A stretch of 32,094 bases of DNA from contig SVNO01000022.1 of the NCBI GenBank assembly GCA_015066845.1, positions 1-32,094 of the forward strand, read 5' to 3'. This DNA comes from Ruminococcus sp. Lineage in GTDB: Bacteria > Bacillota > Clostridia > Oscillospirales > Ruminococcaceae. Numbering within the stretch: position 1 is the first letter of the stretch; every line of letters begins with the position of its first letter. Positions 1,727-24,305 of the stretch are shown in pieces. The position numbers and the translations under genes were made by a program. The notes under the pieces were generated by a model. That model made no database searches. It worked only from the letters and a program-made list of their open reading frames with translations, and was not told where the DNA came from.

Positions 1727-1740
1727 GATGGTATTCCTCC

Positions 1741-3225: not shown

Positions 3226-3239
3226 GATGGTATTCCTCC

Positions 3240-4751
3240 TTATTTGAGCGTTTGATACAGAAAATAATCAATCTCCCATTTTCCGCCTGAACCTGTGTAT
3301 GCGGCATATTGCAGAATCAGCGCGGCATCCACAGCGTTAATTGTACCGTTCTTATCAAGGTCGGCGGCAGTGGTCTGTTCCGTGTTCAGACCGGAGGGAT
3401 TGCCGGAACCAATGGCAGAAGCCGCTTTCAGGAGCAGTGCAGCGTCCGCGGCATTGATATCAATATCAAGGTTGACATCACCGAGGAGCAGTTTGCGTTC
3501 CAGTGTGAGCTTCAGATATTGGTAATCCTTGGAATCCTTGACCGTGACAGAGGTGATTTTGGGTTCTGCGTAGCCTTTGGGAAGGTCACTGCAGCTCACT
3601 GTATAAGTGCCTGCCGGAACACTTGCCATGTTGACTCCGGTATCGGGGAGATTTGCGGCTTTGACAATCATTCTTTTGGTCGGACTTGTATAACTGTAAT
3701 ATTGTGAAGTCCATGAACCGCCGATGCCATAGCTGCCGTACAGATAATGGTAGCTGAGCACGGCATTGATATGCCGTGAACTCTCTTTGGTGTAGAATTC
3801 CACATAACCGTCCTTGTCGGGAATGACCACCGAGGACATTGCGCCACTCTGGAGGGAGAGGATTGCAGCGGTCTGGGGATTGGGCTTGGCAAGGTCGTAG
3901 GATTTTCCATCTATGGTGAAGGTCGTCTTTCCGGTGAAAATGCATGTATCGTGGCCCTTGAAAATGTCCGGCAGATACATACGGCATTTCACATATTCCG
4001 TTGCCTCGTCATAGCATTCCAGATAATTCAGGGAATGCTTACTGCCAAGACGACCTTCAAGCGTATCGTAATGGAAAAAATTGTCCGAGCCGACAGCTGC
4101 GTTTTTCACCGAGCCGGCAGGTGCAGAGAATCGGAGAAGCTTGCCGTAAAGATTATTGCCTGTATCGCTCAGATTCAGGTATTGTTTGCTCTCGTCCACC
4201 TCCAGATAGGCGCGGTACGGATTATCCTTCCATTTCGGGTCAATATAGACACCCCATTGATTCGGCTCAATGCGAATGCTTTCCTCTGCAGCAGGATGAT
4301 AGCCGAGCTGGATATAGTTGCTTGTCTCCTCTTCAAAATAGAACGAACCCGGAGAATGTGTGAGCGATCCGCTGCTGAACGTATCGTCAGATGCTTCATA
4401 AACTTCGTGCAGGACATAGCCACTCGGAATCATTGCTTCAAATTCACTCCACGGAATGTAGAAATAGTCGGGATACTCCGTACTTGTGGATGTGCAGTTG
4501 TAGATGTTGCTTGTATAGGAGCTGTAGAATCTCTCACCGGTGATCGCACGACCGATATACTCGCCCGTGGAATCCTTGAAGCTCACAGAAACACCGTTCA
4601 CAGGATTTCCCTTTTCATCCACCACCTGTACATTGAGGAGATTGGTGGGCTGTACGGTGACGGACGGGAGGCTGCCGCTGGCATATGCCGTAGGGGATGT
4701 CTGCAAAAATGCAAGCGCAGCAGCAATTGTAAATGCAGTTAATTTTTTCAT
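3240..4751 (-). CDS. Secreted dockerin protein, paralogue 3 of 3
   Basis: First gene of the dockerin run. I place the start at the ATG at 4751, because AAAGGA stands at proper spacing before it and the protein then begins with a normal signal peptide (MKKLTAFTIAAALAFLQTSPTAYA). An in-frame upstream start at 4790 would add a non-signal extension lying inside the thrS terminator hairpin. The product is 503 residues. It has an N-terminal Ig-like or Cna-B-like segment (NLLNVQVVDEKGNPVNGVSV), a second VPAGTYTVSCSDLPKGY segment, and a dockerin from about residue 424 (GDVNLDIDINAADAALLL, ADLDKNGTINAVDAALIL). The first calcium loop has I where G is usual. It probably attaches to a cohesin partner outside the cell; the ligand of the middle region is unknown. 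Confidence 0.83.
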   Translation of the reverse strand: MKKLTAFTIAAALAFLQTSPTAYASGSLPSVTVQPTNLLNVQVVDEKGNPVNGVSVSFKDSTGEYIGRAITGERFYSSYTSNIYNCTSTSTEYPDYFYIPWSEFEAMIPSGYVLHEVYEASDDTFSSGSLTHSPGSFYFEEETSNYIQLGYHPAAEESIRIEPNQWGVYIDPKWKDNPYRAYLEVDESKQYLNLSDTGNNLYGKLLRFSAPAGSVKNAAVGSDNFFHYDTLEGRLGSKHSLNYLECYDEATEYVKCRMYLPDIFKGHDTCIFTGKTTFTIDGKSYDLAKPNPQTAAILSLQSGAMSSVVIPDKDGYVEFYTKESSRHINAVLSYHYLYGSYGIGGSWTSQYYSYTSPTKRMIVKAANLPDTGVNMASVPAGTYTVSCSDLPKGYAEPKITSVTVKDSKDYQYLKLTLERKLLLGDVNLDIDINAADAALLLKAASAIGSGNPSGLNTEQTTAADLDKNGTINAVDAALILQYAAYTGSGGKWEIDYFLYQTLK

Positions 4752-4768
4752 TGTATATCCTTTCTGAA

Positions 4769-4797
4769 AATCCCCCGTGTAGGAATACACAGGGGAT
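4769..4797 (-). terminator. Hairpin after thrS, weak intrinsic terminator
   Basis: On the minus strand AATCCCCTGTGTA pairs with TACACGGGGGATT (13 pairs, one G-U, TTCC loop), followed by only four T residues. It sits between the thrS stop and the first dockerin gene. No promoter is visible in the 54-base gap, so the dockerin genes either depend on readthrough or on a promoter inside thrS. Confidence 0.55.
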
Positions 4798-7606: not shown

Positions 7607-8401
7607 TTATGTATCCTTAGTAATTTCAATTAAGCCCAAGTCAAGCAGTGCAATGCCAATCAGACTTAGGGCATTGTAGAGATTGGTTTTTTGTTTTTGT
7701 GCCTCTTCGTATGTAAATACATCACGATTGCACTTACCAAAGTTATCCAGCTCATATTTGCAACCATTAATGATGTCCAATGACAGAAGGAGCTCATTTA
7801 TTGCGTGAATTAGTGTGTCCTCCGTCATGTTGCTCTGGTTAATTTTTTCCGAGTGCAGGTAATTCTTGATTTTTACCCCATCACTTTCCTTTGTTGAAAA
7901 CTGCAATTGAAATGTATTGGTTCTGAAATTACTGAGTGTGAAGCTTTCTACAGCCGGATAGCTGAGCAGGAGCATTCCATGTCCATCCTCAGCATCAGGA
8001 TTGTCGTAGGCATTGACTAATCTGTTCATCAGATCTTGTATTAATGCGGCATCGGTATTGGATTCATCATCCCTGTCAAACAGATAGTAAATAGCCGCGT
8101 TGTCCACATCAAAAGCATAATCCTCTAACAATTTGGAGAAGAGCTGATTTAAAAATTCGTTATCTTTTTTGATATATTTAATATTGCTTTCTTCCGTGTT
8201 AATAACAAAAACTCTTGCATTCGGATTGTCTTTGGGATTATAGCATTTGTATTCAAAATTTTGGGAACGCTTGATAGTTTCGTATTGGTAATCGAAAATT
8301 TTTTCAAATATTTTATTTAAAATATAGAATTCCGTTTTAGCTCCTTCTACAACAAACAAAACCTCGCCGATATTTTTGTTTTTATTCAATGTGATTTTCA
8401 T
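7607..8401 (-). CDS. TOPRIM/RloB-like protein, partner of the ATPase gene
   Basis: Encodes 264 residues from the ATG at 8401, which overlaps the end of the upstream ATPase gene by 20 bases; an in-frame ATG at 8416 is also possible. The N-terminus has VLFVVEGAKTE (E19), followed by YYLFDRDDES (D109, D111, D112) and SYPAVESFTL (E152). An EG.xTE strand, then a DxD loop, then an acidic ESF helix is the layout of TOPRIM-like nucleases of the RloB / AriB / AbiLii kind. This assignment is from motif order, not from a search. Known families pair such proteins with an ABC/AAA ATPase that holds the nuclease inactive until phage infection. The coding sequence is AT-rich compared with thrS and the dockerin genes, which suggests horizontal acquisition. 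Confidence 0.7.
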   Translation of the reverse strand: MKITLNKNKNIGEVLFVVEGAKTEFYILNKIFEKIFDYQYETIKRSQNFEYKCYNPKDNPNARVFVINTEESNIKYIKKDNEFLNQLFSKLLEDYAFDVDNAAIYYLFDRDDESNTDAALIQDLMNRLVNAYDNPDAEDGHGMLLLSYPAVESFTLSNFRTNTFQLQFSTKESDGVKIKNYLHSEKINQSNMTEDTLIHAINELLLSLDIINGCKYELDNFGKCNRDVFTYEEAQKQKTNLYNALSLIGIALLDLGLIEITKDT

Positions 8402-9524
8402 AATTCGGTACTCCATTGAATCTTCCGGAAAGGTACATCTTTTCCATATTCTGAGACGGTCTTGGATTCTCATCCGAAACACGATTCAGCCGGCTGCCGT
8501 CATCATCAAAATCCACTGTATAAATCTGATCGGGACGAAGCAGCCCCATGGAAAGAAGGTTAGTAGAGTGGGATACAAAAATCAGCTGTGCCCCCTTGGA
8601 TTCCTGCATGAAATACCGCACTAACAGTCTTTCCAGATCATTGTGAAAACCGCTGGAAAACTCGTCGATCAACAAAATGCCGTTGTTGTCAAGACAGTGG
8701 AAAATGGCTGGGAGAAGGCGGAGGAGGTTCTGGTTGCCGAGGGATTCCATGTCATAAGGTATTGGTTCATTAATGGAATGACGCTTGAAAAAAATGTATT
8801 TTTCATCCGATTCTGTGCTGAATGTAAAGTGCGTACCCACAACTTTCTTTGCATATTCAACACTCTGATCAAAACGATACATCTGAAAAAAGGTATTGAT
8901 TCTGTCCGCACCATTCTTTTTTAAATACTCAGGCAGTTCAAGATCTGCATTAATATATCTCCTACCCTCTGGTTTATACAAATCAAAATATACAGAATTC
9001 CGAAGCTCCTCAAACCACAGTTGAAGTGTAGAATTGCCACGAAATTTAGTACTAAAATAGATTTCTCTAAGAAAAAGAATCTCCTCAGGCAGATTATTAT
9101 GTTCAGTCGGCGTATCGATCGTTACTTTCGCATAGCTGCCCTCTCGTTCTAAAAGAACCTGACCGTCTGACGAAAGCCTTTCGTAGGTACAGCCTCTTTC
9201 TAAATCAAACCCGATTGCATAAATAATTTCGGATTCGCCCACAGAAAATGTATATCTAAGTTGGATGACTGAATCATCACAAAACAAACATTGATAAGCA
9301 CCAATGTTGATTTCCTCATTTTTGAATAACAAATCTAACAAAAATCTCATCGCAATAATTGCATTCGACTTACCGGAAGCATTTGCACCAACAAACAACA
9401 ATCCCTTCAAAATGCCGTCCTTCGTGTTGCGGTCGGTGAGCAGTTCGTAGGATGTAGTTGTCAGGTCAATGGTTGTCGGATTTTTGAATGATTTGAAATT
9501 GGTGATTTCATAGCTTTTGAGCAT
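8382..9524 (-). CDS. AAA/ABC-type ATPase (COG1106-like), likely defence sensor
   Basis: Encodes 380 residues from the ATG at 9524, chosen because GGAGGGG stands six bases upstream and the protein then begins with MLKSYEITNFKSF, the usual start of SMC/OLD-like ATPases. Walker A is GANASGKSN (46-54). An ABC-like signature SLGNQNLL starts at 261, Walker B is ILLIDEF (283-289), and the switch histidine lies in FVSHST (about 319). The region between Walker A and the signature has no coiled coil long enough for an SMC protein, so this is a compact AAA_15/AAA_21-type ATPase. It is translationally coupled to the TOPRIM-like gene. Similar pairs are RloA/RloB, PARIS (AriA/AriB) and AbiL. Which of these, if any, cannot be decided by eye. 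Confidence 0.8.
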   Translation of the reverse strand: MLKSYEITNFKSFKNPTTIDLTTTSYELLTDRNTKDGILKGLLFVGANASGKSNAIIAMRFLLDLLFKNEEINIGAYQCLFCDDSVIQLRYTFSVGESEIIYAIGFDLERGCTYERLSSDGQVLLEREGSYAKVTIDTPTEHNNLPEEILFLREIYFSTKFRGNSTLQLWFEELRNSVYFDLYKPEGRRYINADLELPEYLKKNGADRINTFFQMYRFDQSVEYAKKVVGTHFTFSTESDEKYIFFKRHSINEPIPYDMESLGNQNLLRLLPAIFHCLDNNGILLIDEFSSGFHNDLERLLVRYFMQESKGAQLIFVSHSTNLLSMGLLRPDQIYTVDFDDDGSRLNRVSDENPRPSQNMEKMYLSGRFNGVPNYENHIE

Positions 9525-9572
9525 ACTATTCCCCTCCATTTCTGCTTTGATAGTATGACTTTTTCTGAATTA

Positions 9573-9601: not shown

Positions 9602-9703
9602 GAAACTGCGGTTTCATTTTTATCAAAATACATCCAATATTTCCCCCTCTCAGTTGTTATATAAATAAAGGGCTTGTGCCTCACACAGAATGGAGGAATA
9701 CAC

Positions 9704-11119
9704 ATGAAAAAACAACTGACCGCAGCTCTGACTGCGTTCCTGCTCTGTGCCAATACGCTGCCGCTTGGTGCGTGGGCTGCGACAAATACAAGCGGTGAAT
9801 ATGAGGGACTGCACTGGTCGCTTGCCGATGGTGTGCTGACCATTGGCGGAGAGGGGCGTATTGTCTATGATACGGGCTTTCCCGATGGAGATTCTGCAAA
9901 ATATCCGGATTGGGGACAGTACGCCGATGAAATCACCGGAATCATCATTGAACAGGGCGTGACAGGTGCGGATGCGGACTGCTTTCGGGAATATTCCGCG
10001 CTGGAATCCGTCATCCTGCCAGAGGGCTTTGCAAGCCTGAGCGCGCGGGTGTTTCAGGATTGCCCGAAGCTGCGCGAAATCGAAGGGCTGGAGCATGTGA
10101 CGCAGTTCCATCAGCATTGCCTGAACGGCACTGCTATGACTGCCGAAAATCCCTTTGTCATTGTCGGCGGCAGGCTGCAATACTGCGACTACACCGAGGT
10201 GACGGACATCGTTGTCCCCGATGGCGTGACCTCCATCGGCGCGAATGCGTTCGGCAATCTGATGGAGGAATCGAGTGAATCCATTCTGACCGATCCCTTT
10301 GATAAGAGAACAGTGGAGGATCTGTATTTTACGATCACACTGCCCGATTCTGTCGAAATCATCGACGATTACGCCTTTGCAAATCTTACCACGCTGACTT
10401 CCGTCAACATCCCTGAAGCTGTCACCACAATCGGAGCATATGCCTTCCTTGACTGCGTACGGCTTGACGCGCTCACGCTCGGACAGAATGTGCAGTCTGT
10501 CGGGGATTATGCCTTCTTCAACTGCAAGGAGCTGGACACCCTGACGGTGCTTTCCGGTGATACCCGGTTCGGTACAATGGCATACGGTACACTGTGCGAT
10601 ATGGTCGGCTGTTTGATGGAAGCAAACCCCGACAATTTCACAGCGGAGTACATGGCGGAGTATCTGGAGTTTGACCCTTACTTTTATGATGCTGTGGCTT
10701 ACTACAACGTGGACTGGTTCGGAACGGGGGATTATCTGTGGTTTGACCAGTACCTTATGATGGAAAAGATCTCCCATCATCTCTATACCACCCCCGATGC
10801 CTTTGTACGCGGTATTGCCAATTCTTCGGCAAAATCCCTTGCCTATGACACAGGCGTGGGCTTTCTGGAGCTGGAGCAGCTCGGCGACTGCAATGGAGAT
10901 ACGGCTGTCAACAGCAGTGACGCTGCCATCCTGCTCTATGCCGCCGCGCAGGAGGGCGTGACGGGGGAGAGTGGATGCTCCGCTTTGCAGGAATGCGCAA
11001 TGGATGTGGACGGCAGCGGTACCATGAATGCCGTGGACGCTGCGTGGATGCTCAAATATGCTGCTTATAAAGGCAGCGGAGGAACAATGGGATTGTACGG
11101 ATATGTGAACAGTCTCTGA
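9704..11119 (+). CDS. Secreted BspA-like leucine-rich-repeat protein with dockerin
   Basis: Encodes 471 residues from the ATG at 9704, which has TGGAGGA upstream; the longer frame from 9674 lacks a site and would mask the signal peptide (MKKQLTAALTAFLLCANTLPLGAWA). A WSLADGVLTIGGEG segment, typical of the start of BspA-family surface proteins, follows. Then come LRR_5 repeats of the form VTSIGANAFGNL, VEIIDDYAFANL, VTTIGAYAFLDC and VQSVGDYAFFNC (about residues 90-290). The dockerin starts near 394 with loops GDCNGDTAVNSSDAAILL and MDVDGSGTMNAVDAAWML, and ends in an aromatic tail. LRR_5 proteins usually bind host or bacterial surface ligands, so this is probably a cohesin-docked adhesin or binding module, not an enzyme. 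It is monocistronic, ending in the terminator at 11181. Confidence 0.88.
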   Translation: MKKQLTAALTAFLLCANTLPLGAWAATNTSGEYEGLHWSLADGVLTIGGEGRIVYDTGFPDGDSAKYPDWGQYADEITGIIIEQGVTGADADCFREYSALESVILPEGFASLSARVFQDCPKLREIEGLEHVTQFHQHCLNGTAMTAENPFVIVGGRLQYCDYTEVTDIVVPDGVTSIGANAFGNLMEESSESILTDPFDKRTVEDLYFTITLPDSVEIIDDYAFANLTTLTSVNIPEAVTTIGAYAFLDCVRLDALTLGQNVQSVGDYAFFNCKELDTLTVLSGDTRFGTMAYGTLCDMVGCLMEANPDNFTAEYMAEYLEFDPYFYDAVAYYNVDWFGTGDYLWFDQYLMMEKISHHLYTTPDAFVRGIANSSAKSLAYDTGVGFLELEQLGDCNGDTAVNSSDAAILLYAAAQEGVTGESGCSALQECAMDVDGSGTMNAVDAAWMLKYAAYKGSGGTMGLYGYVNSL

Positions 11120-11232: not shown

Positions 11233-12432
11233 TTATTCCCCCATCCTCTCCAGAATCTTTGCAAAAATCCGGTCGGCAGCTTCTTCCTTGGACATGCACG
11301 GCAGCTCCAGTGCACCGTCCGCTGTGATGAGCGTCAGGATGTTGGTGTCCGTGCCGAAGCCTGCACCTTCCTGCCGCAGGGAATTGGCACAAATCATGTC
11401 CGCATTCTTTTTCAAAAGCTTTTTCTGCGAATTTTCAAGCATATTCTCCGTTTCCATCGAGAATCCGCAAACGAACTGCCCCTCGCGCTTGTGTGCGCCC
11501 AGATGGGCAAGAATGTCCTGCGTTCTTGTCAGCGGAATGGACATTTCCCCATCGGATTTCTTGATTTTCTCCTGCGCCGTGACCGCTGGACGATAGTCCG
11601 CAACCGCTGCTGCCATGACGAAAATATCCTGCTCCTGCGCGTGTTCCGTTGCTGCCGCGAACATTTCCGCCGCGCTCTCCACCTGCACGACCTTGACAAA
11701 GGGCGGTGGTGTCAGTGCGCTTGCACCGGTGACAAGTGTTACCTGCGCACCGCGGAGCATTGCCATTTTTGCCAGTGCATAGCCCATTTTTCCGGTGGAA
11801 TGGTTGGTGATGAAGCGTACAGGGTCAATGCGCTCACGCGTTGCGCCTGCCGTGATGAGGACTTTTTTTCCGGCAAGCGTCTTTTCACAGGCAATCGCCT
11901 TTTCAATATATGACAGCAGTACTGCCTCCGAGGGCAGCTTGCCGTCCCCGATGTCACCGCAGGCAAGATAGCCGCAGTCGGGGGCAATGACCTCGAAGCC
12001 GTAGCCGGCAAGGGTTTTCAGGTTGTCCTGCACGATCGGGTTGCGGTACATGTTCGTGTTCATCGCCGGTGCAATAATTTTGTGGCACGGGCAGGCAAGG
12101 AGCGTGGTGGTGAGCATATCGTCCGCAATGCCGTGCGCTGCCTTGGCAATGACATTTGCTGTGGCAGGTGCAACCAGTACCACGTCCGCTCGCTTAGCAA
12201 TTGCCACATGCTCCACGCTGTACTGGAAATTCCGGTCGAACGTGTCAATCAGGCATTTGTTGCCTGTGAGCGTTTCAAAGGTCACAGGGCTGATGAACTG
12301 TGTAGCGTTCTCCGTCATGGTGACAATGACATCCGCGCCGGTTTTCTTCAATGTGCTCGCAAGTCCGGCAATCTTGTACGCGGCAATGCCGCCGGTTACG
12401 GCAAGGACAATGCATTTTCCTGTCAGATCCAT
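11233..12432 (-). CDS. coaBC: Bifunctional phosphopantothenoylcysteine synthetase/decarboxylase
   Basis: Encodes 399 residues. It joins cysteine to 4'-phosphopantothenate (CoaB) and decarboxylates the product to 4'-phosphopantetheine (CoaC), steps two and three of coenzyme A synthesis. The N-terminal flavoprotein half has the catalytic H75 (SVEHVAIAKRAD), N125 in PAMNTNMY and C158 in GYLACGDIGDGKLP. The C-terminal half has ITAGATRERIDPVRFITNHSTG with N210, and K289 in AQEKIKKSDG. These numbers coincide with those of the Escherichia coli enzyme. The ATG at 12432 follows AGGAGGAACTGACC and lies two bases after the stop of the upstream kinase gene. It is the last gene of the pantothenate/CoA unit. 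Confidence 0.97.
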   Translation of the reverse strand: MDLTGKCIVLAVTGGIAAYKIAGLASTLKKTGADVIVTMTENATQFISPVTFETLTGNKCLIDTFDRNFQYSVEHVAIAKRADVVLVAPATANVIAKAAHGIADDMLTTTLLACPCHKIIAPAMNTNMYRNPIVQDNLKTLAGYGFEVIAPDCGYLACGDIGDGKLPSEAVLLSYIEKAIACEKTLAGKKVLITAGATRERIDPVRFITNHSTGKMGYALAKMAMLRGAQVTLVTGASALTPPPFVKVVQVESAAEMFAAATEHAQEQDIFVMAAAVADYRPAVTAQEKIKKSDGEMSIPLTRTQDILAHLGAHKREGQFVCGFSMETENMLENSQKKLLKKNADMICANSLRQEGAGFGTDTNILTLITADGALELPCMSKEEAADRIFAKILERMGE

Positions 12433-12434: not shown

Positions 12435-13205
12435 TCAGTTCCTCCTGTTTCGTTCGTAAATCATTCGCAATCCCTGTAAGAGCAAATCATCATCGCAGGT
12501 GATGGCATGGGTGCAGTGCGGTACAACGATATGGGAAAGTCCCCCCGTTGCCACGACCTGCGTTTCGTAGCCAAGCTCCTCCCAGATGCGGTCGATCATC
12601 CCATCCAGTGACGCTGCCGTACCATAGAGAATACCGCTGCGCAGACAGTCAGCAGTATTCCGGCCGACGACCTTTTCCGGCACAGTCAGCCCGATTTTCG
12701 GGAGCTTTGCTGCATGGGAAGTCAGCGAATCCAGAGAAATCCGTGCACCCGGCTGGATAATCGTACCCACATAATCTCCTTGCTTGTCGAGTACGGAAAA
12801 GGTGGTTGCCGTGCCCATGTCAATGACGATCACGGGCGTACCATAGAGCGCGGAAGCAGCAACGGCATCCACGATCAGGTCACTGCCGACTGCCGCCGGA
12901 TTGTCCATGCGCAGGCGCAGCCCCGTGTCCAGTTCCAGTCCCACCACCATGACGGCAGTTTCCGTGAGCTTGCCCAGTGCCGCACGGAGTACCGGAATCA
13001 GGGGCGGTACGACCGAGGAAATGATGATGCCGTCAAGTGATTGCGGCGAAATGCCGTAAAGCTCCAGAACCGACTGGAACATCACCGCATATTCAAGTTC
13101 CGTCTGGCGCAGGGACGTTGCCATGCGTTCTGTGAACAGGACACGTTCTCCCTCCAGACAGCCAAGGACAATGTTTGTGTTGCCCATGTCAATGGTCAGC
13201 AGCAT
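12435..13205 (-). CDS. coaX: Type III pantothenate kinase, apparently active copy
   Basis: Encodes 256 residues, normal length for CoaX. It phosphorylates pantothenate with ATP, the first step of CoA synthesis, and the family is not feedback-inhibited by CoA. The phosphate loop is TIDMGNTNIVLG (residues 4-15). The substrate-site segment is DNPAAVGSDLIVDA, and the catalytic Asp129 lies in VIVIDMGTATT. The dimer and ligand segments IQPGARISLDSL, GRNTADCLRSG and ATGGLS are present. The ATG at 13205 follows GGAGGAGG and overlaps the stop of the upstream paralogue by 10 bases, so the two are translationally coupled. Together with coaBC downstream it covers three CoA steps. Confidence 0.93.
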   Translation of the reverse strand: MLLTIDMGNTNIVLGCLEGERVLFTERMATSLRQTELEYAVMFQSVLELYGISPQSLDGIIISSVVPPLIPVLRAALGKLTETAVMVVGLELDTGLRLRMDNPAAVGSDLIVDAVAASALYGTPVIVIDMGTATTFSVLDKQGDYVGTIIQPGARISLDSLTSHAAKLPKIGLTVPEKVVGRNTADCLRSGILYGTAASLDGMIDRIWEELGYETQVVATGGLSHIVVPHCTHAITCDDDLLLQGLRMIYERNRRN

Positions 13206-13987
13206 GGCGCATCCTCCTCCCTTAAAAAATCGTAGATAATCCGCAGACCGAGCAGCGGCAGCTCTGTATCCACAATAATATTGTGCCGACAGCAGGGAAT
13301 GACCGTCTGCGCAAGGTCGCCCGTGGCAACCAGTGCCGTGGATGCATAGCCGCGTTCTTTCCAGATGCGGTCGATCATTCCGTCGATTGCCGCAGCATTG
13401 CCGAAAATCACACCGCTGCGCATGGAATCGACCGTGTTCGTGCCGAGGACATGCGCCGGTCTTTGCAGGCTGATGCCCGGCAGCTGGGATGTACCCGATA
13501 CCAGAGAATGCAGTGACAATTCCACACCCGGCAGAATCGCACCGCCCAGATAGCAGCCGTACACATCCACAAGGGAGAGTGTCGTTGCTGTGCCAAATTG
13601 GATGACAATGACCGGTGCACCGTATTTTTCGTGCGCTGCCGTTGCGGTAATCACAAGGTCGCTTCCGGCTTGTTCGGGATTGTCAATGAGCAGCGGCACA
13701 TTGGCAGGCGTTGAACTGTCCGCCTTGAAAATGGGGATATCCGGTGCAATTTTTGCAAGTGCATCACGCAGCACCGTGGTCATTGACGGCACAACCGTGG
13801 AAATCACTGCGCCCTCAAGGGCGGACAGCGGTACATGGTGCAGGCGGAACACTGCCTTGAAAATGACAGCATATTCCAGTCCCGTCCTGTGTGTGTCCGT
13901 GGAAATGCGCTCGGTCAGCGCAAGACGTTCCCCATCATAGCATCCCAGAACCAGATGGGAATTGCCGACATCAATTGTGAGAATCAT
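13196..13987 (-). CDS. Type III pantothenate kinase paralogue lacking the catalytic Asp
   Basis: Encodes 263 residues from the ATG at 13987; a GTG at 13996 lies too close to the AGGAAAGG site. The fold and most motifs of CoaX are kept: TIDVGNSHLVLG, DNPEQAGSDLVITA, LGGAILPGVELSLHSL and GTNTVDSMRSG. The aspartate of the DxGTATT motif, proposed as the catalytic base in CoaX enzymes, is glutamine here (Q130, codon CAA at 13598-13600, text VIVIQFGTATT). The late TGG motif is changed to TGD (ATGDLA). It may be an inactive or regulatory partner of the second copy, since CoaX works as a dimer whose active site lies at the interface. A kinase with a different substrate is also possible. Confidence 0.85.
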   Translation of the reverse strand: MILTIDVGNSHLVLGCYDGERLALTERISTDTHRTGLEYAVIFKAVFRLHHVPLSALEGAVISTVVPSMTTVLRDALAKIAPDIPIFKADSSTPANVPLLIDNPEQAGSDLVITATAAHEKYGAPVIVIQFGTATTLSLVDVYGCYLGGAILPGVELSLHSLVSGTSQLPGISLQRPAHVLGTNTVDSMRSGVIFGNAAAIDGMIDRIWKERGYASTALVATGDLAQTVIPCCRHNIIVDTELPLLGLRIIYDFLREEDAPCC

Positions 13988-14045: not shown

Positions 14046-14702
14046 TTATTCGCTTTTCAGCTCGATATGCAGCGGACGCAGCTTGCGCAGAATCGGGCAG
14101 ATCGCCGCTGTAATCAGGCAGGCTACAATTGCCTCCGGTACACCGTTTGCACCGATAACGCCCATAATCACGCCGTACAATGCTTCAAATTCGATCTCCT
14201 TTGCCGCAGCGTATGCTTCACCAAACAGCACATAGATGCCGCCCATGACAAGGATGGTATTGGTCAGAGAGCCGGCAAGACCGCCGATGATGTAGGAAAT
14301 TGCCTTCTTGTTCTTTGTCAGCTTATACACCAATGTGAATGCATAATATGCAGTCACGCCGATGAGGATACGCGGCAGGAAGCAGATGGCAAGGCTCTTG
14401 ATGGCAGCGAGGAAACCGTTTCCCTCCAGACCTGCGGACAGGAACGGGGAAAAGACGAAGGACACGACACTCGGTTTCAGCGTATTGTTCATCAGACTTG
14501 TCACGCCGAACATTGCTCCCAGAAACGCGCCTTTTTTCGGGCCGAGAAAGATCGCGCCGACAATCACCGGAATGTGGATGGTGGTTGCATTGATCACGCC
14601 AAGCGGAATGTAGCCGAGGTACGGAACAAACGCCAGCAAAAAGATGATTGCCGTAAACATGGCGGTCAATACAAAGCTTTGGGTTTTTTCTGTTGTGTTC
14701 AT
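14046..14702 (-). CDS. panT: ECF transporter S component, probably for pantothenate
   Basis: Encodes 218 residues, mostly hydrophobic, with about six membrane helices: residues 10-30 (VLTAMFTAIIFLLAFVPYLG), 40-60, 95-125, 135-160 and 175-205. The PYLGYIPLGVINATTIHIPVIVGAIFLGP stretch is typical of ECF substrate-binding S subunits. S components work with a shared EcfA/EcfA'/EcfT module encoded elsewhere. The specificity for pantothenate is inferred from the neighbours: two pantothenate kinases and coaBC lie directly downstream. The ATG at 14702 follows AGGAGATGG. The charged C-terminal tail LRPLHIELKSE is cytoplasmic. The gene symbol depends on context. Confidence 0.8.
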   Translation of the reverse strand: MNTTEKTQSFVLTAMFTAIIFLLAFVPYLGYIPLGVINATTIHIPVIVGAIFLGPKKGAFLGAMFGVTSLMNNTLKPSVVSFVFSPFLSAGLEGNGFLAAIKSLAICFLPRILIGVTAYYAFTLVYKLTKNKKAISYIIGGLAGSLTNTILVMGGIYVLFGEAYAAAKEIEFEALYGVIMGVIGANGVPEAIVACLITAAICPILRKLRPLHIELKSE

Positions 14703-15365: not shown

Positions 15366-15433
15366 TATGATACTGGAGTATTATGCTGTATTGTACTCAC
15401 TACTTTTACAGAAAAATTATTGGAGGTGGTCGA

Positions 15434-16630
15434 ATGAAGAGTTTTTCCTACGTTGCAAAAACCCCTGCAAACAAGCAGATAAAGGGTACAATCAACGCGG
15501 AGGATGAGAGAGAATTCAGTGCGAAGCTCAGAGAAAAGGGCTATACTCTCATCAGCTATGAGGAAAAAGAAATCGGCGCAAAGAAAACTGTGAAGAAGTT
15601 CAAGACCAAGGAGCTGGCATTTAACTGCCGTCAGCTTGCAGCAATGCTGACATCCGGTCTGACGCTGGTCAAAGCACTGGACATTTTGAGTAAGGAGCAG
15701 CCCAATGAGGCATCCAAGGCAGTCTGGCAGAGCGTGTATGAGAACGTGCAGAAGGGTGAATCCTTCTCCTCGTCCCTGGAAGCGTTCAAGGGCGTATTCC
15801 CTGACTTCCTGATCTCAATGGTATCCGCAGGTGAGTCCAGTGGTTCGCTTGATATTATTATGCAGCGAATGAGTGACCATTATGCAAAGGAAAACAAGAT
15901 GAACAATACCGTCAAGGGTGCGATGACCTATCCTATCATCCTCTTGATACTCTGTATTGCCATCGTTATCGGTATGTTTACCTTTATCATGCCGACGTTC
16001 GCAAATCTGTTTGAAAGCGAAGAAGATATGCCGCCTCTGACACGCGTCATGATGGGCTTCAGTGATTCGCTGGTAAACTACTGGTTCGTTTATCTTGGTG
16101 TCATTGTTGTAGTTGTATTTGCAATTATCTATGCATTGAAGCTCCCGAACACTCGTCTGAAATGGGACAAATTCATCATCAAGGGTCCGGCATTCGGCCC
16201 TCTGGTTGTCAAGATTTATACAGCACGTTTTGCAAGAACACTGGCTTCTCTGTACTCCAGCGGTATCCCGATGGTAGAGTGCCTGCAGCGTTCTTCTGCG
16301 ATTCTCGGCAACCGTTACATCAGCCAGTGCTTTGAAAATGTAGTCGATGAAGTAAAACAGGGTGAAACCTTGTCTGCGTCCATTACCAGAACGGAAATCT
16401 TCGACTCCATGTTCTGCTCCATTATCTACGTCGGTGAGGAAGCCGGTGCGCTGGATACCATCCTGCAAAAGACTTCCGACTACTACGATGAAGAAGCGGA
16501 CTCCGCAGTTGGACGACTCGTCAGCCTGCTCGAACCGGTTATGATTATCATCATGGGTATCGCTGTAGCTCTGGTCGTTGCATCTGTACTGCCTGCAATG
16601 TATGGCTCTTTCGAGGCTATCGCAGCATAA
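15434..16630 (+). CDS. pilC: Type IV pilus inner-membrane platform protein PilC
   Basis: Encodes 398 residues from the ATG at 15434, which follows TGGAGGTGG; the longer frame from 15383 has no site. PilC/GspF proteins sit in the cytoplasmic membrane and couple the PilB and PilT motors to pilin addition and removal. The N-terminal KSFSYVAKTPANKQIKGTI is the usual PilC opening. Two T2SSF domains span about residues 58-190 and 260-395. Membrane helices lie near 170-195 (YPIILLILCIAIVIGMFTFIMP), 215-240 and 368-390 (EPVMIIIMGIAVALVVASVLPAMY). The repeated VSAGESSGSLDIIMQRM and VGEEAGALDTILQKTSDYY motifs mark the two halves. It is the first gene of the operon. Confidence 0.95.
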   Translation: MKSFSYVAKTPANKQIKGTINAEDEREFSAKLREKGYTLISYEEKEIGAKKTVKKFKTKELAFNCRQLAAMLTSGLTLVKALDILSKEQPNEASKAVWQSVYENVQKGESFSSSLEAFKGVFPDFLISMVSAGESSGSLDIIMQRMSDHYAKENKMNNTVKGAMTYPIILLILCIAIVIGMFTFIMPTFANLFESEEDMPPLTRVMMGFSDSLVNYWFVYLGVIVVVVFAIIYALKLPNTRLKWDKFIIKGPAFGPLVVKIYTARFARTLASLYSSGIPMVECLQRSSAILGNRYISQCFENVVDEVKQGETLSASITRTEIFDSMFCSIIYVGEEAGALDTILQKTSDYYDEEADSAVGRLVSLLEPVMIIIMGIAVALVVASVLPAMYGSFEAIAA

Positions 16631-16663
16631 AACCAATTCAATTAACGAGAGGTGGAAAAGTAA

Positions 16664-18313
16664 ATGCTTTCATTTGATATTACCGATAGAAATATACGCA
16701 TTATCAGAGGTACTGAAAACGGCGGCAAGATTAGAATCAGTGCAGCCGCTAACCTCGACCTGGAGGAAGCAGTAATCGTCAATGGCCATGTTAACGATAT
16801 TAACCGCGTGGCTATGATGATCAATCAGGTATGTAAGCAGAACGGCATGACCGATAAAGAGGCCATCGTCTGCATCTCCTCCAACCAGACCGTGTTCAAG
16901 GAGCTTCTGATTCCTCCGAATCCGAAGGAGAGCGAGTTCCTCAAGAACGTTCGTCATGAGCTGCAGATGCAGATCAACGTCGATGACTCCTATGCAGTGG
17001 GCTACCTGAGTGTGGGCGAACTGGAAGAAAATGAGCATGGCGAAAAGGTACAGCGCATCCTTGCAACAGCATGTCCGTATGATGTGGTTGACTGCTACAA
17101 GCGTATCTTCAGTATGCTGGGCATCACCCTGAAGACCATCATGATTGGCTGTAACGCGATCACCAAGGTACTGCTTGCTGATGTAAAGGTAAAGAGCCTG
17201 ATGCCGCTGCTGGCTGTACAGATTGACAAGAACTTCATCTCTCTCAACCTGTACGAGAATAACCAGCTGTCCTTCTCCCGTTTCGCGTCCATCGATCCTG
17301 AGGACTACGAGAATCCGGACGACTATGTATTCGAGGCTGTGAACGAGAACATCTTCCGTATGATTCAGTTCGCAAGAAGCCGTGGCTCTGAAGCAATTTC
17401 CAACGTTGTATTCTATGGTGACATTAACGCATCTCCGAACCTCTACAACCGTCTGGTTGATGAGATGGAGAACAACGAAATCAGCGTAAGCCAGCTGAAC
17501 GTACCGCCGCAGATTCATGGTTATCAGAACCTCGAATTCTCCCTGTATGCTAACGCGATCGGTGCGATGTTCAAGCGTAACAAGATTACTGAACACGTTA
17601 ACCTGCTCGATGGCGATATCAGCAATGCATTGACCAATGCAATGAAGGCACGTCAGTCCGAGGGCGGCGTTCCGGTAGTACCGCTTATCTGTGCAGTACT
17701 GAGTGCAGTAGTTGTTCTGGGTTCATGGGGTTTCCTGACACTCAAGAATAACAGTGTAAAGAATGAAACCAAGAGATTGCAGGCAGAAATTGACAGCCCT
17801 GAAACAGCTGCAAAGCTGCAGCAGTATGAGGACCTGAAGGTACTCCGAGAGGAAGTCAAGAATTACCACACTCTCATTACAAACTCCAGCGAAGCATACA
17901 AGAGCCGTCCGGTTCTGGTTGAAGAGGCTTTTGTAGCAGTGGATGAGACACTCAAGCTGATGATGGAGCAGAATCCGGGTACACGCGAGGCGGCAGTTGT
18001 TGAACGCTGCGACTATGATAAGGGTGTTCTTGCTGTACCGATTGAAATTCTGACAGTGGATGAATTCTCCCAGAAGTATCCGACAATGGTTGTAGATCAT
18101 CTCTATAATGAGTATGGCGATCTGTTTGGCGAAGTAGAATATGTTGGTTATACTGTAGATGAAGTAACAGTGATTGAAGGTGAAACTGCAGCACCGGGTG
18201 CGCGTGATGGTAAGGAAATTCATTTCTCACTGCTTCTGAACTTGCAGCAGAATGAAAAGCCGGATCTCGACAGAGATGCAGTGGAGGAATCCACTGAGGA
18301 AGCAGCAAGCTAA
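16664..18313 (+). CDS. PilM-PilN fusion protein of the type IV pilus alignment complex
   Basis: Encodes 549 residues. Residues 1 to about 325 are PilM-like, an actin-fold cytoplasmic ring protein: LSFDITDRNIRII start, VCISSNQTVFKELLIPP, HELQMQI and VQIDKNFISLNLYEN. A membrane helix follows at 337-358 (PVVPLICAVLSAVVVLGSWGFL). Then come a coiled coil (about 361-410) and an extracytoplasmic alpha/beta region, which is the PilN layout. In most bacteria PilM and PilN are separate, joined by a short cytoplasmic PilN tail; here the link is covalent. The ATG at 16664 follows AGAGGTGG. pilO starts 15 bases after the stop, so the order C-MN-O matches the usual pilM-N-O cluster. The acidic C-terminus (DAVEESTEEAAS) is unusual. 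Confidence 0.85.
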   Translation: MLSFDITDRNIRIIRGTENGGKIRISAAANLDLEEAVIVNGHVNDINRVAMMINQVCKQNGMTDKEAIVCISSNQTVFKELLIPPNPKESEFLKNVRHELQMQINVDDSYAVGYLSVGELEENEHGEKVQRILATACPYDVVDCYKRIFSMLGITLKTIMIGCNAITKVLLADVKVKSLMPLLAVQIDKNFISLNLYENNQLSFSRFASIDPEDYENPDDYVFEAVNENIFRMIQFARSRGSEAISNVVFYGDINASPNLYNRLVDEMENNEISVSQLNVPPQIHGYQNLEFSLYANAIGAMFKRNKITEHVNLLDGDISNALTNAMKARQSEGGVPVVPLICAVLSAVVVLGSWGFLTLKNNSVKNETKRLQAEIDSPETAAKLQQYEDLKVLREEVKNYHTLITNSSEAYKSRPVLVEEAFVAVDETLKLMMEQNPGTREAAVVERCDYDKGVLAVPIEILTVDEFSQKYPTMVVDHLYNEYGDLFGEVEYVGYTVDEVTVIEGETAAPGARDGKEIHFSLLLNLQQNEKPDLDRDAVEESTEEAAS

Positions 18314-18328
18314 AGGAGGGTGAACACA

Positions 18329-19141
18329 ATGAAAATGGAAATGAGTTATCGCGATAAAATCATTCTTATCGTACTGTTTATTATTCTGATTCTGGTAGGC
18401 GGCTTCTTTGCACTGATCAGACCGAAGTACAAGGAACTCAAGGTAAGTAAAGAGGCACTGGAAGTTGTAAGAACAGAGTGGGAAGGCATCGAGAAGAAGT
18501 TCGAACAGATCCCGATTATCCAGAAGGCTATCACAAAGAATTACGAGGAAGCAAAAAAAGAAGCAAAGGTATTTGAGAATACTGCATTTGTTTCTGCAAA
18601 CGAATCCTGGACACATGAAAAGTCCAGCTATGAGATTGACGAATATCTCCAGTCAGCCATTGATGAGTGTGAACTGAAGGTAGAAGCATTCACGCTTGAT
18701 GAGGTTGACTCTGAGGAAATGTCCTACTACTTCATCGAACCCGATGTTGTAACACATTCTCTGCTGGAAGCTGCGGATGTGAACGGCAACCATGCTGAAA
18801 AGGTTGCAAAAATCATGAAGGAAAATACAGTACTGAACGAGCGTCAGGTTGCAGAGGTAATGGTTCAGAATCTTCAGCTGACTGTAAACTGCAAGAGAGA
18901 AAACCTGATGAAGTTCCTCGCGAAGATTGACGAAGACAATAATGCGGTTCTGGTAACTACAGTGAACATTGAGAACTATCAGTTCGACGAGAGTGAATCT
19001 CCTTCCGCAGGTGGTGCAGGTGATGAGGCAGCTGTGATTCAGAAGGTTGAACCGAACACTGGCACATCCAGAGTAATCATCAATATCAGCTTCTATAGCG
19101 CAGTTCCGATTGACGAGCCTGATCTTGGTGAAATCGCATAA
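18329..19141 (+). CDS. pilO: PilO-like type IV pilus alignment protein
   Basis: Encodes 270 residues from the ATG at 18329, eight or nine bases after AAAGGAGG; a GTG at 18320 is too close to that site. A short cytoplasmic start (MKMEMSYRDK) leads into one membrane helix (about 10-30, IILIVLFIILILVGGFFALI). A coiled coil follows (about 33-95, RPKYKELKVSKEALEVV and beyond), then a mixed extracytoplasmic domain. This is the PilO/GspM-like layout. Position directly after the PilM-PilN fusion supports it. Direct sequence motifs are weak, as is normal for PilO, so the name rests on topology plus neighbours. PilO pairs with PilN to carry signals between the motor and the pilus base. Confidence 0.8.
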   Translation: MKMEMSYRDKIILIVLFIILILVGGFFALIRPKYKELKVSKEALEVVRTEWEGIEKKFEQIPIIQKAITKNYEEAKKEAKVFENTAFVSANESWTHEKSSYEIDEYLQSAIDECELKVEAFTLDEVDSEEMSYYFIEPDVVTHSLLEAADVNGNHAEKVAKIMKENTVLNERQVAEVMVQNLQLTVNCKRENLMKFLAKIDEDNNAVLVTTVNIENYQFDESESPSAGGAGDEAAVIQKVEPNTGTSRVIINISFYSAVPIDEPDLGEIA

Positions 19142-19191
19142 GTACAAGAAAAAATGAAATCGCAACAGACTTCATCGGAAAGGTGGTAAGG

Positions 19192-21948
19192 ATGATGAAG
19201 GATAACAAAAGTACTCCGAAGGTAAAGGGTACCGTTTTGTACACTGTTGTTTCCGTGCTCATGGTGCTCATCGTTTTTCTGATGGGCACGCTGGCACTTG
19301 CAGCAACAGCAAACAGACGGTCTTACACCAATTACCAAAAAGAACAGACCGAGTACACCGCAAGACTGCTGCTTGATTCCGTTGTTAAGACAATTGAAGA
19401 TGACACCACCACGACAGGTATCCGTCAACAGATGGTAAATGGACTGACCTCCGTAGGCAGTTCCATGACGGTAACGGTTACACTGGAGGGTGTGGACCAC
19501 GATGTAGAAATCACCAATGTCGGCGAAAAGACATTGTATGATGAAGCAAGAACACAGTGGGTAACCGGTGATGTCTATGAAGTTGCTGCGGTCAACAGCA
19601 AGCTGTTGGCAGATACAACATTCTGTGCATACATCGTAGGTGAGCACGAAGTTACCAGAAGAAGCAATGGCGGCGGCGGTGCGTTCGTCTCCATGGGTGA
19701 CCTCGGCGGAAGCGAAATCGGTACCGGTGGTTACATCACTGGCGGTACTTATGTCGGTGTAGGCGAGGCAGAGCATGACTATGAGCTCGGTTACATGGGT
19801 GAAACCATTATGGATGCGCCGTTCTTTGCAAAGGGCAATGTTAATGCAGAAAACGAAGTGTTCTTCCACTTCACAAAGCCCGGCGACTCCTTTATTGTAA
19901 CAGGCAATTACACAGCAAATAACGCAGGTGGTCTGATTCCGGTTTTTGACGGATTCCAGTGGGATCCCACACTCACAGACCAGTCCTACGAACAGCTGCC
20001 GTACATTTTTATCGGCGGCACATTCAAGGTGGATTCTCAGTACAAGAGAGTCAACAATTTCAACCCCTTCGGTGAACCCGATTATGCAGTAAACCTCTAC
20101 TGCGGCAACATTGATGTTCACAGCGATGTCGGCTTGAACCTCTATGGTGACCTGTATACCTTTGAGTCAGGTACAGAAAACAAACTCGGCAGTAACGGTG
20201 CAGACAGTAAACTGTATAAGTGGACTGCAAAGACACTGCAGAAGAAGGATTCTACTACCACTGAGCTTGGTAACTGGTACTCCATGGGTGCTGTCAGACT
20301 CAGCGGCAACAGAGATATTGTTATTGAAGGCGACCTTCGCGTAGACAATGACATTTATATTGAAGGCAATTGCAAGCTCAATGTACAGGGCAACATCGTA
20401 TGCGGTGGTACACTGTATAACAGCAGCAATAATGTCATTGCAACAGGAATTTATGCAAGCGACATCAGTAATAGCGGCAAAATCGAGTGCAGACGTTCTG
20501 TCCATTCCTTTGCAGCGGATATCGGAAATGTTGTATGCGCTACTCCCTATGTGCCGCACACACCGAGTGCTGCCGACATTGTCGGTGCGAAGAGAGTGTG
20601 GTATGATGATTTTGTAATTCGTACTGATGCGGCAGCGCAGAATTGTGAGTATTCCTATAATGAGTATGTAGACCTTCTTGGTGCTATTACTACCATACCC
20701 AAAACTGGTATGATTTACACCGGTGGTTATGATCCGGCATCCGGTCAGACATTTGAGGAGTTCTTCGAGGCAACTGTGCCGGAATTCCATGAAGTCATGG
20801 AAAAGAGTCGCAACAGCGGCGAAGCAAATGCAACAGTGGAAAACCTCTACAGCATTGCTGGAGTGTATGGCGACATTTATCCGCCTGACTTCACAAGACA
20901 GAAGCTGCTCGACCCCGCAAACGGCATTGTAAAACAGCCGGAAGCAGCGGATTATGAGAATGTATACCCGACCAAGATTTCTGAGCTTGGCCCGAACGTT
21001 TACGATTCGACAACCGGTACACTGAAGATCCCGACGTACAACGAAGCTAATCTGGCAAGCATGAAGAAGAATATTCCGGGCGGCAACACACAGGATGAAT
21101 GGTTTGAAATTACTACCTCCTGCGAGCTGACTGGTACGTTCAACGACAACATCTACATTAAGCCCAACGGCAACCCGATTACCGTTATCCTGAACAATGT
21201 AAGAATGAGTCAGGACGGCGGCGGCGGTAAGACGCAGATCATCATTGACGATGAGAGCCAGGTAACACTCTTTATCAGAGGTACTACCAAGATTGACAGT
21301 GGTTTCATCGTTACCGCAGATTGGATGGACGCTATCTATGGCGATACCCATACATTGGCACCCAGACCCGGCAGACCGGGTAACCCCGGACATGGCAGAG
21401 GCGGCGGATGGTTTGCAGGTACAAGAGCATCCAGCACACTTCCCATGGCAGCTGATGTGACAACTGTCAGACAGAATGCATCCGTAACAGACTGGTTCTA
21501 TCCGAACGTTATCATTTATGGTGAAGAAAATTCTGTTCTCGATATGTCCACGAACAACTCTCTGGTAACTGCACATGTCCGTGCACCTGAGATGAAGTTC
21601 CTGCAGAAGATGGGTATGCAGCTCGGTAATAAGATTGAGTACATCGGTACCGGCACCATGATTTATGGACCGGGCGGCAGCTATTCCGCAGACGCAAATT
21701 CGCTGGGCGTTGTTGGTCAGCTTATCGCTGGTCAGATCGTAATGGACAACAACCAGAAGTGGGGTATGCTTTACGTTACCGATGGCGGTGCAGGCGCATC
21801 TTGCAGCTGTGGTTGTCCGCGTTGTAACGTGACAAGTCCGAGTACTTGTGCATGTAATTGTGGCACTCCGGGCTGTATCTGTACCGGTGCTACGCCTTCC
21901 GGTTCTATTCCGGCAAGATTCACCACATTGTATTATAACTACTACTAA
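19192..21948 (+). CDS. Very large PilX-like pilus-associated protein with Cys-rich tail
   Basis: Encodes 918 residues from the ATG at 19192 (AAAGGTGG upstream; the next codon is also ATG). A short basic start leads into a membrane helix at about 14-38 (VLYTVVSVLMVLIVFLMGTLALAATA) followed by NRRSYTNYQKEQTEYTARLLLDS. That resembles the PilX N-terminal layout rather than a class III prepilin, since there is no G-FTLIE site. The rest is extracytoplasmic. It includes a bactofilin-like or beta-helix stretch at about 370-425 (DIVIEGDLRVDNDIYIEGN), a Gly/Pro-rich stretch at about 723-743, and nine cysteines at about 870-898 in CxCxCxxC-type clusters. It sits between pilO and the prepilins, so a tip adhesin or minor-pilin-like role is likely. 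I do not recognise the family. Confidence 0.75.
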   Translation: MMKDNKSTPKVKGTVLYTVVSVLMVLIVFLMGTLALAATANRRSYTNYQKEQTEYTARLLLDSVVKTIEDDTTTTGIRQQMVNGLTSVGSSMTVTVTLEGVDHDVEITNVGEKTLYDEARTQWVTGDVYEVAAVNSKLLADTTFCAYIVGEHEVTRRSNGGGGAFVSMGDLGGSEIGTGGYITGGTYVGVGEAEHDYELGYMGETIMDAPFFAKGNVNAENEVFFHFTKPGDSFIVTGNYTANNAGGLIPVFDGFQWDPTLTDQSYEQLPYIFIGGTFKVDSQYKRVNNFNPFGEPDYAVNLYCGNIDVHSDVGLNLYGDLYTFESGTENKLGSNGADSKLYKWTAKTLQKKDSTTTELGNWYSMGAVRLSGNRDIVIEGDLRVDNDIYIEGNCKLNVQGNIVCGGTLYNSSNNVIATGIYASDISNSGKIECRRSVHSFAADIGNVVCATPYVPHTPSAADIVGAKRVWYDDFVIRTDAAAQNCEYSYNEYVDLLGAITTIPKTGMIYTGGYDPASGQTFEEFFEATVPEFHEVMEKSRNSGEANATVENLYSIAGVYGDIYPPDFTRQKLLDPANGIVKQPEAADYENVYPTKISELGPNVYDSTTGTLKIPTYNEANLASMKKNIPGGNTQDEWFEITTSCELTGTFNDNIYIKPNGNPITVILNNVRMSQDGGGGKTQIIIDDESQVTLFIRGTTKIDSGFIVTADWMDAIYGDTHTLAPRPGRPGNPGHGRGGGWFAGTRASSTLPMAADVTTVRQNASVTDWFYPNVIIYGEENSVLDMSTNNSLVTAHVRAPEMKFLQKMGMQLGNKIEYIGTGTMIYGPGGSYSADANSLGVVGQLIAGQIVMDNNQKWGMLYVTDGGAGASCSCGCPRCNVTSPSTCACNCGTPGCICTGATPSGSIPARFTTLYYNYY

Positions 21949-21965
21949 TGAGAGGAGTGCTGTTT

Positions 21966-22397
21966 ATGAAAAAACTGAAGAAAAAACGCGTAAAGGGCAT
22001 GACTCTGATTGAGGTCATCATTTCTCTGGCGATTTTCACCGTTCTCACTGCCATGATGGTAGAAGTAGGTTCGGTGACAAAATCCCTGATGATGTCCACC
22101 AATCACCTGACAAACAAAACAACAGCAGAATCTCCCATCGGTGCTGTGCGCGATGTTACAGGATTGCAGGATGCTGCGAAAACTGTTGTTGTTGACCCCG
22201 CTGATGCTGCGCAGGTGGACGCTGCAATGGGTAAGACGGACCTTACGGTTACTGTCACATCCCGCGGCTACACGAATGATGTTGCAGTAACACGCTATTC
22301 CACAGGTGCGGCTGCACAAATGGCAACAGCAAACGGCACAAATTGTGATACCTCCAAGCATATGAACGGCGATCTCGTGTTCTATGATATCCACTAA
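21966..22397 (+). CDS. Type IV prepilin, short
   Basis: Encodes 143 residues from the ATG at 21966, after GAGGAG. The class III signal KKLKKKRVKG-MTLIEVIISLAIF is cut by PilD after G11 and leaves an N-terminal methionine, with Glu5 conserved. The hydrophobic helix continues to about residue 32. The globular part is small, with an Ala-rich segment (DPADAAQVDAAMGK) and one cysteine. The hydrophobic core and short head fit a pilin subunit or minor pilin (PilV/GspI-like). Which of the two prepilins here is the major subunit cannot be told. It overlaps the upstream stop region closely and lies 15 bases before the next prepilin. Confidence 0.9.
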   Translation: MKKLKKKRVKGMTLIEVIISLAIFTVLTAMMVEVGSVTKSLMMSTNHLTNKTTAESPIGAVRDVTGLQDAAKTVVVDPADAAQVDAAMGKTDLTVTVTSRGYTNDVAVTRYSTGAAAQMATANGTNCDTSKHMNGDLVFYDIH

Positions 22398-22412
22398 GTA
22401 AGGAGGATTCAC

Positions 22413-23378
22413 ATGAAAAAAAGAGTTAAGGGTTTTACCCTGATTGAATTGATTGTTGTAATGGCAGTCTTTGCTATCATCATGTTCGGCGCACTGCAAT
22501 TGATCCCGTCAGTGCTGAAAATGATGGTGCAGGCGGATGTCCATGAGGGAGGAAATGCTGCTGTCAGCAGTATTTCCAACTACCTCGAAAGTGAGCTGTC
22601 CACGGCTGAATACCTGTATGCGACTGATACAATGCCTGTAATCAATGACAAGGGCGGCAATGAGCTTGAGCTTGCTGACAAGAGCATGGTAAAGGAATTT
22701 GTTGAACGCTTCTATGAGGGTGTTCTGAAGGATGGCGCAAGACCGGCATCTCCGCAGTACGGTAACGGTAAGGTGCATGTCCTTCTCATTGACAACAATA
22801 ACAATGGTAGAATCAGCGAGATCGTATACAGAGTCAGTGACTTTGGCATTGGTGTTACCGATGCAGATATTGTATATGAATCTTCCTCCATGTACGCAGT
22901 GAACAAGGCATATTATGATACCTATCAGTTTGAAATTCTTTGCGGAACTTATGACGAGAGTGGTTTTGATTTGACAGACCCTGTTGATTATCAGAATTTC
23001 GTGAACAGTCTTTCCAATAAGAACACTGCATTCAGCATTCGTGCAACAACAAACAGAAACAATACAGACTATTCCTTTGTAACAAATTCCACAATGTCAC
23101 TCGTTAACCTCTATAACAACCGTGCGTCTGGCGGCGTTCCCACTGGCACATACTATGTTGTGACTGAGGAAACAGAGGGCGGTTCAATTGTACCGTATAT
23201 TGTAGATATCAGCAAAGGTTATGGTGTAGCCCAGACCGTTACCAGCTATGACACTGTACATACCAATTCCCGTAAGTACGGTAAGCTGACGGAGGGCAAA
23301 ATCATCAACTATGTGGGCGGTACAAATGACGGCTACTGCTTCATCTATAGTTATGGTTCTGAAATCGAAACAGACTAA
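22413..23378 (+). CDS. Type IV prepilin, long, with a calcium-loop-like motif
   Basis: Encodes 321 residues. The signal MKKRVKG-FTLIELIVVMAVF is a textbook class III prepilin site (cut after G7, Phe1, Glu5). The head is larger than a typical major pilin and fits a minor pilin of the PilW/GspJ type. DNNNNGRISEIV (127-138) resembles an EF-hand or dockerin-type calcium loop, with Asp/Asn at positions 1, 3 and 5, Gly at 6 and Ile at 8, but without the final Glu at 12. TAAGGAGG lies before the ATG. It is the last gene of this operon segment, ended by the bidirectional hairpin at 23389. Confidence 0.9.
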   Translation: MKKRVKGFTLIELIVVMAVFAIIMFGALQLIPSVLKMMVQADVHEGGNAAVSSISNYLESELSTAEYLYATDTMPVINDKGGNELELADKSMVKEFVERFYEGVLKDGARPASPQYGNGKVHVLLIDNNNNGRISEIVYRVSDFGIGVTDADIVYESSSMYAVNKAYYDTYQFEILCGTYDESGFDLTDPVDYQNFVNSLSNKNTAFSIRATTNRNNTDYSFVTNSTMSLVNLYNNRASGGVPTGTYYVVTEETEGGSIVPYIVDISKGYGVAQTVTSYDTVHTNSRKYGKLTEGKIINYVGGTNDGYCFIYSYGSEIETD

Positions 23379-23382
23379 GTAA

Positions 23383-23425
23383 AAAAATCGGCAGTCGGAA
23401 GGATTGCTCCCGACTGCCGGATTTT
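23383..23425. terminator. Bidirectional terminator between the prepilin operon and pilD
   Basis: The stem CGGCAGTCGG (23389-23398) with CCGACTGCCG (23410-23419) is flanked by a seven-A run on the left and GATTTTA on the right. The minus-strand U-tract is strong, so it mainly ends pilD transcription, and it also ends the plus-strand operon. Confidence 0.88.
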
Positions 23426-23430
23426 ACAAG

Positions 23431-24270: not shown

Positions 24271-24305
24271 GATGTTTGTCCTCCTTTAAGGTCGATGATA
24301 TATAT

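Follow-up and report, generated by a model that had tools for sequence, protein, structure and literature searches.

Pantothenate kinases (PanKs) characterised before those of Apicomplexa were all homodimers, and apicomplexan PanK1/PanK2 is a heteromeric PanK whose complex was shown experimentally (PMC8366970). Type III PanKs, the CoaX enzymes, are not feedback-inhibited by CoA (PMC12570885), and the CoaX of Mycobacterium tuberculosis is reported to be inactive and pantothenate-responsive (PMC7770189, PMC12288473). An inactive CoaX and a heteromeric PanK are each already known; the literature searched, mostly outside subscription journals, contained no account of a panT-linked pseudo-CoaX that recurs as the tandem partner of an active type III PanK. 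Here, we analyze a 32,094-nucleotide stretch of DNA from Ruminococcus sp. (the window; all coordinates are positions within it) in which two coaX genes lie in tandem, the upstream of which, coaX*, most likely encodes a retained pseudokinase.

The pair belongs to an operon whose genes all lie on the (-) strand and are transcribed in the order panT, coaX*, coaX, coaBC. panT (14046-14702) encodes an ECF transporter S component (PF12822) whose closest solved structures, 4RFS (E=2e-15) and 6ZG3 (E=5e-15), we take to be ECF-PanT; this linkage of the coaX pair to panT was absent from an earlier, sequence-only reading of the same DNA. coaX* (13196-13987; 263 aa) and coaX (12435-13205; 256 aa, a canonical type III PanK) are both PF03309 members and share 13196-13205, so that the 10-bp overlap and both frames are exactly as that reading had placed them. 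A ribosome-binding-like stretch, GGGAGGAGG, lies within the 3' end of coaX*, directly ahead of the coaX ATG. The last gene, coaBC (11233-12432; TIGR00521, 461 bits vs. a cut-off of 219.7), encodes the phosphopantothenoylcysteine synthetase/decarboxylase, i.e., the next steps of the CoA pathway after PanK. A search for an Rfam motif 5' of panT returned a single weak, sub-threshold match that is not credible.

Outside the operon, the window holds several other features of this Ruminococcus-like genome. A type IV pilus or type II secretion-like set (T2SSF, two T2SSE ATPases and a prepilin peptidase; 15383-27165) adjoins the CoA operon. An overlapping gene pair at 7607-9539 (-) is a candidate two-gene anti-phage system, one gene encoding an AbiLi-like AAA_21 ATPase (PDLC02335, E=6e-54; PDC-M12A, E=5e-32) and the other a protein matching PDC-M12B (E=5e-11). 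Several secreted proteins (275-4790 and 9674-11119) carry, as judged by eye, C-terminal dockerin-like repeats (DVNxDGxxNAxDAALxLxYxA), which are typical of cellulosome-forming ruminococci.

The downstream enzyme CoaX has D6, D105, D125 and the TGG motif (Thermotoga maritima, Tm, numbering). No other canonical PanK was detected in the assembly, which is 93% complete and contains no PF03309 genes beyond coaX* and coaX. Neither a type I PanK (CoaA) nor a pantoate ligase (panC) was found in the assembly with models that match in control genomes, and a type II PanK search, which had no positive control, was likewise negative. With no panC and no CoaA, supply therefore appears to depend on pantothenate uptake and the CoaX pair: the organism appears to import its pantothenate and to rely on these two genes.

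CoaX* is 48% identical to CoaX and scores almost as high against PF03309 (195.7 and 208.8 bits, respectively; cut-off 24.7), and it differs at two motifs that the sequence-only reading had singled out correctly. Where CoaX reads VIVIDMGTATT, CoaX* reads VIVIQFGTATT, Gln130 (codon CAA, 13598-13600, (-) strand) replacing the Asp that aligns to Tm D125, and ATGGLS of CoaX is ATGDLA in CoaX*, with Asp224 (codon GAC, 13316-13318, (-) strand) at the site of Tm G216. The same reading had identified the replaced Asp as the catalytic base. By HAMAP MF_01274, however, the proton acceptor is the Asp of GADR (D105 in Tm, D109 in Bacillus), and the Asp of VDxGTATT (D125 in Tm, D129 in Bacillus) is instead a monovalent-cation ligand. 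We further take D6 to be the phosphate-1 Asp, TGG the adenosine motif, Gly216 the ATP-site Gly, and T179 (T184 in B. anthracis) a substrate contact that acts across the CoaX dimer; B. anthracis CoaX numbering (D109, D129, T132, T184) agrees with this assignment. Since the lost Asp is that of position 125 and D105 is kept (D110 in CoaX*), CoaX* would be altered at the cation site and at the ATP-site Gly, with the catalytic base intact. The statement that all other motifs are preserved stands for D6, D105, GTATT and T179 (T185 in CoaX*), but not for SSVVP, which has become STVVP.

The CAA codon is two base changes away from any Asp codon, so Gln130 is not a single miscall, and sequencing error was further dismissed because every relative has its own lesion. 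All the single-copy coaX genes read from the genus encode Asp at position 125. The GSDL sequence, in which the Arg of GADR is lost, is not peculiar to CoaX* because it occurs in both window copies and in the single-copy relatives, and we rejected it as a sign of inactivity. CoaX* falls below every CoaX equivalog cut-off among the NCBI model matches listed (best 207.4 vs. 233) and passes only the subfamily model TIGR00671, whereas CoaX passes one NCBI equivalog model (252.1 vs. 233). Its AlphaFold model (pLDDT 84.5) best matches B. anthracis CoaX (2H3G, TM 0.85-0.90) and also 9B78 and 3DJC. Set against type III PanKs, CoaX* has the family, the fold, D6 and D105, and lacks the cation-site Asp, TGG and an equivalog-level score.

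CoaX* shares with B. anthracis (2H3G) and T. maritima (3BEX/3BF3) CoaX the family, fold, length, D6, the D105 and T179 equivalents, GTATT and a gene adjoining CoA genes, but differs in the Gln at the cation site, the TGD, and the overlapping gene for a canonical partner. M. tuberculosis CoaX (Rv3603c; 9B78, 9CKU), a Dop/PanB regulator in pantothenate metabolism, likewise has an altered TGG motif (TGH in 9B78), but it keeps the cation-site Asp; its gene lies with panC/panD, whereas the window genome has no panC; it is a hexamer that binds Dop, whereas the proposed partner of CoaX* is CoaX or PanT; and M. tuberculosis has a separate active PanK (CoaA), whereas here no canonical PanK was seen other than the neighboring CoaX. 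The overlapping window pair encodes together two paralogues, one with an incomplete active site, and in this resembles apicomplexan PanK1/PanK2, in which two paralogous subunits have incomplete residue sets and one complete site per dimer is proposed. The apicomplexan enzymes are eukaryotic and type II-like, with another dimer and a demonstrated complex; the window pair is bacterial and type III, its complex is a proposed one, and one of its partners looks complete.

Overlapping or abutting coaX tandems occur in 5 of the 38 genus genomes (L040-L043 and the window), all arranged panT-coaX*-coaX-coaBC. The remaining genus genomes carry an intact coaX, and none of those read with flanks adjoins panT and coaBC, the exception being a second coaX copy in G026 that adjoins a panT-like gene. 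All five downstream copies keep D6, D105, D125 and TGG, and all five upstream copies carry Gly216Asp (TGD, or AGD in one). Four of these upstream copies also lack a core Asp, the site of which varies: D125Q in the window, D6N with D125N in G013, and D105N in both G007 and G016, with G008 keeping all three Asps and changed only to TGD. Because the tree joins the upstream clade to the downstream clade as its sister (support 96), as expected from one duplication, and every upstream copy shares Gly216Asp, the simplest reading would be that Gly216Asp came first and that Asps were lost later and repeatedly. The downstream copies of this clade have a change of their own: in five of five, Thr replaces Gly143, so that GGxI reads GTII. 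The upstream copies keep this Gly, as do 77 of 80 other canonical CoaX (3 of 80 lack it), and the change is a possible complementary loss in the active copies.

The pattern extends beyond the genus. Approximately 97 genomes outside it, in a set of 398 family genomes, have at least two PF03309 matches; the genomes of the set are metagenome assemblies of mixed completeness. Tandem pairs number 12 in at least three lineages (five in the genus, six genomes of g30 and one of g64, G194), and the g30 and g64 tandems, which also lie downstream of panT, arose by duplications separate from the genus one. In these, one copy has lost D105 (Asn; Gly in one), the degenerate copy being the downstream gene in g30 and the upstream gene in g64. 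The partner keeps D6, D105, D125 and TGG in all 12 pairs, all of which adjoin panT, and 11 overlap (by 4, 10 or ~14 bp, the last from an uncertain start) with one pair not overlapping. A survey of tandem pairs for the same Asp-to-Gln change, as the sequence-only reading had proposed, thus shows other active-site Asps lost in tandem copies; Asp-to-Gln is not the common change, Gln at position 125 being found in only 2 of ~200 sequences, the window copy and L139. In many other family genomes a degenerate copy lies at a second locus, most often with panT immediately downstream of it (24 of 38 non-tandem degenerate copies are paired with panT). Some panT-less copies neighbor housekeeping genes of no evident relation to the pathway (citrate synthase, pseudouridine synthase, glycogen phosphorylase, YpeB). 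Of the 201 CoaX sequences placed in a tree, 61 lacked at least one of the three core Asps, and the state changed between degenerate and canonical at least six times on supported branches (19 by parsimony), "canonical" being defined by the three Asps and carrying no independent proof of activity. The 24 single-copy genomes checked were chosen for low score, and the degenerate share among them is not a rate.

Nine genomes had only degenerate CoaX, including all five sampled of g123 (G159, G235, G289, G335, G375), and CoaB/C went undetected in eight of the nine. The g123 genomes, in which canonical CoaX, CoaA and CoaB/C were all undetected, keep a degenerate coaX*-panT pair (L213, L214, L217, L221, L223). 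Their "PanT" may carry another CoA precursor. In degenerate-only genomes the protein must work without CoaX, presumably with PanT, or else on a changed substrate.

Several explanations can be weighed against the way these copies have diverged. Gly216 is kept in 11 of 60 degenerate sequences vs. 134 of 139 canonical ones, while the substrate-contact Thr179 is kept in 56 of the 60 and SVVP, G103, G148, L163 and G186 are practically unchanged; with Gly216 mostly lost and Thr179 and the other motifs kept, the nucleotide/cation side erodes and the substrate/dimer side stays. A redundant duplicate heading for loss, its Asp changes neutral, could account for different species having lost different Asps, and the second coaX copy of G050 (L150), split by a frameshift, is a case of real decay. 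However, dN/dS is 0.029-0.058 for the degenerate copy of the closest g30 species (0.054-0.076 for the canonical partner), and 0.13-0.29 in the window genus (0.07-0.21 for canonical copies), where dS is near saturation. On these low values, the degenerate copies are, where measurable, under purifying selection and not decaying; given also that the reading frame is full-length in every one of the 12 tandem pairs, that the overlaps are precise, that motifs of the substrate site and interface are selectively spared and that such copies arose repeatedly, plain decay is very unlikely, and the sequence-only view that the upstream copy is not a decaying gene holds up. An active kinase with a changed cation need or substrate (e.g., pantetheine or some other molecule resembling pantothenate), in which the Gln and the TGD Asp would be adaptive, is compatible with the intact D6 and D105 of the window copy, and a changed substrate is conceivable for the CoaX*-PanT pairs of g123. 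One new activity should nevertheless conserve one new motif, whereas different species lost different catalytic Asps, D6 and D105 included, and Gly216 is gone in most; CoaX enzymes are moreover reported to be highly selective for pantothenate (PMC11487621). We consider such an altered kinase improbable; CoaX* has probably lost all or nearly all catalytic activity and been retained for some other function.

The main rival to a partnership with CoaX is a stand-alone pantothenate sensor, which would bind pantothenate without ATP and regulate PanT or another target with no need of CoaX. The coaX*-panT pairs that predominate outside tandems would suit this role, as would their residue losses, since non-tandem copies typically lose D6 and D125, many keep D105 (or have Glu instead), and nearly all keep T179. 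The persistence of some degenerate copies where canonical CoaX, CoaA and CoaB/C are undetected points the same way, as does M. tuberculosis CoaX, inactive, pantothenate-responsive and also off TGG (PMC7770189, PMC12288473). Within tandems, however, the degenerate gene is tied no less closely to coaX than to panT, and it tends to lose D105 or D125, often D105 itself; in g30 the canonical copy, not the degenerate one, is nearer to panT. Nor does panT linkage stand as a statistical correlate of degeneracy: the raw counts (43 of 61 degenerate vs. 40 of 104 canonical, p=1e-4) gave no trend on the 8 usable phylogenetically independent pairs, and because panT-linked CoaX copies form related clades, the association cannot be shown to be independent of kinship. 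We regard a stand-alone sensor as somewhat unlikely for the window copy, but this may be the ancestral role, and sensor and heteromer roles could both be true in tandem operons.

A regulatory or heterodimeric role for CoaX* is plausible, and our leading, if tentative, interpretation is that it joins the active CoaX encoded next to it in a heteromer and regulates it. This is favored in the window because translational coupling to an intact partner recurs in three independent duplications. CoaX*, with a full CoaX fold, an altered ATP/cation site, and a retained pantothenate side and dimerisation region, would have its translation coupled to that of the canonical CoaX directly downstream; the two would form a heteromer in which CoaX* walls the active site from the partner side, and the second site, dead but pantothenate-binding, would tune CoaX, and hence the trapping of imported pantothenate, to supply. 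Several observations count against this partnership: the upstream copy of G008 has all three Asps, identity between CoaX* and CoaX in the interface region showed no clear excess over other regions, and no natural CoaX-CoaX or CoaX-PanT fusions were found, the long open frames encountered being unstopped upstream sequence. Degenerate copies must have some role besides heterodimerisation with CoaX, since many, which the sequence-only reading had not noted, have no tandem partner and some no other detectable CoaX in their genome; partnering CoaX is likewise not the general reason for retention, because degenerate-only genomes lack a canonical partner.

Possibly, these proteins form a pseudo-CoaX class that evolved repeatedly in this Oscillospiraceae-like family and acts through heteromers with active CoaX and/or gating of PanT, which would make the window pair a first bacterial heteromeric PanK linked to vitamin uptake. 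A constrained pseudo-CoaX, repeatedly evolved beside PanT, is a candidate control mechanism for CoA synthesis in CoaX-dependent bacteria, and one that is testable because the two proteins are small and soluble. Among genes annotated as "coaX" in gut bacteria, many probably encode proteins without kinase activity, and predictions of vitamin B5/CoA pathways from the presence of coaX may therefore be wrong.
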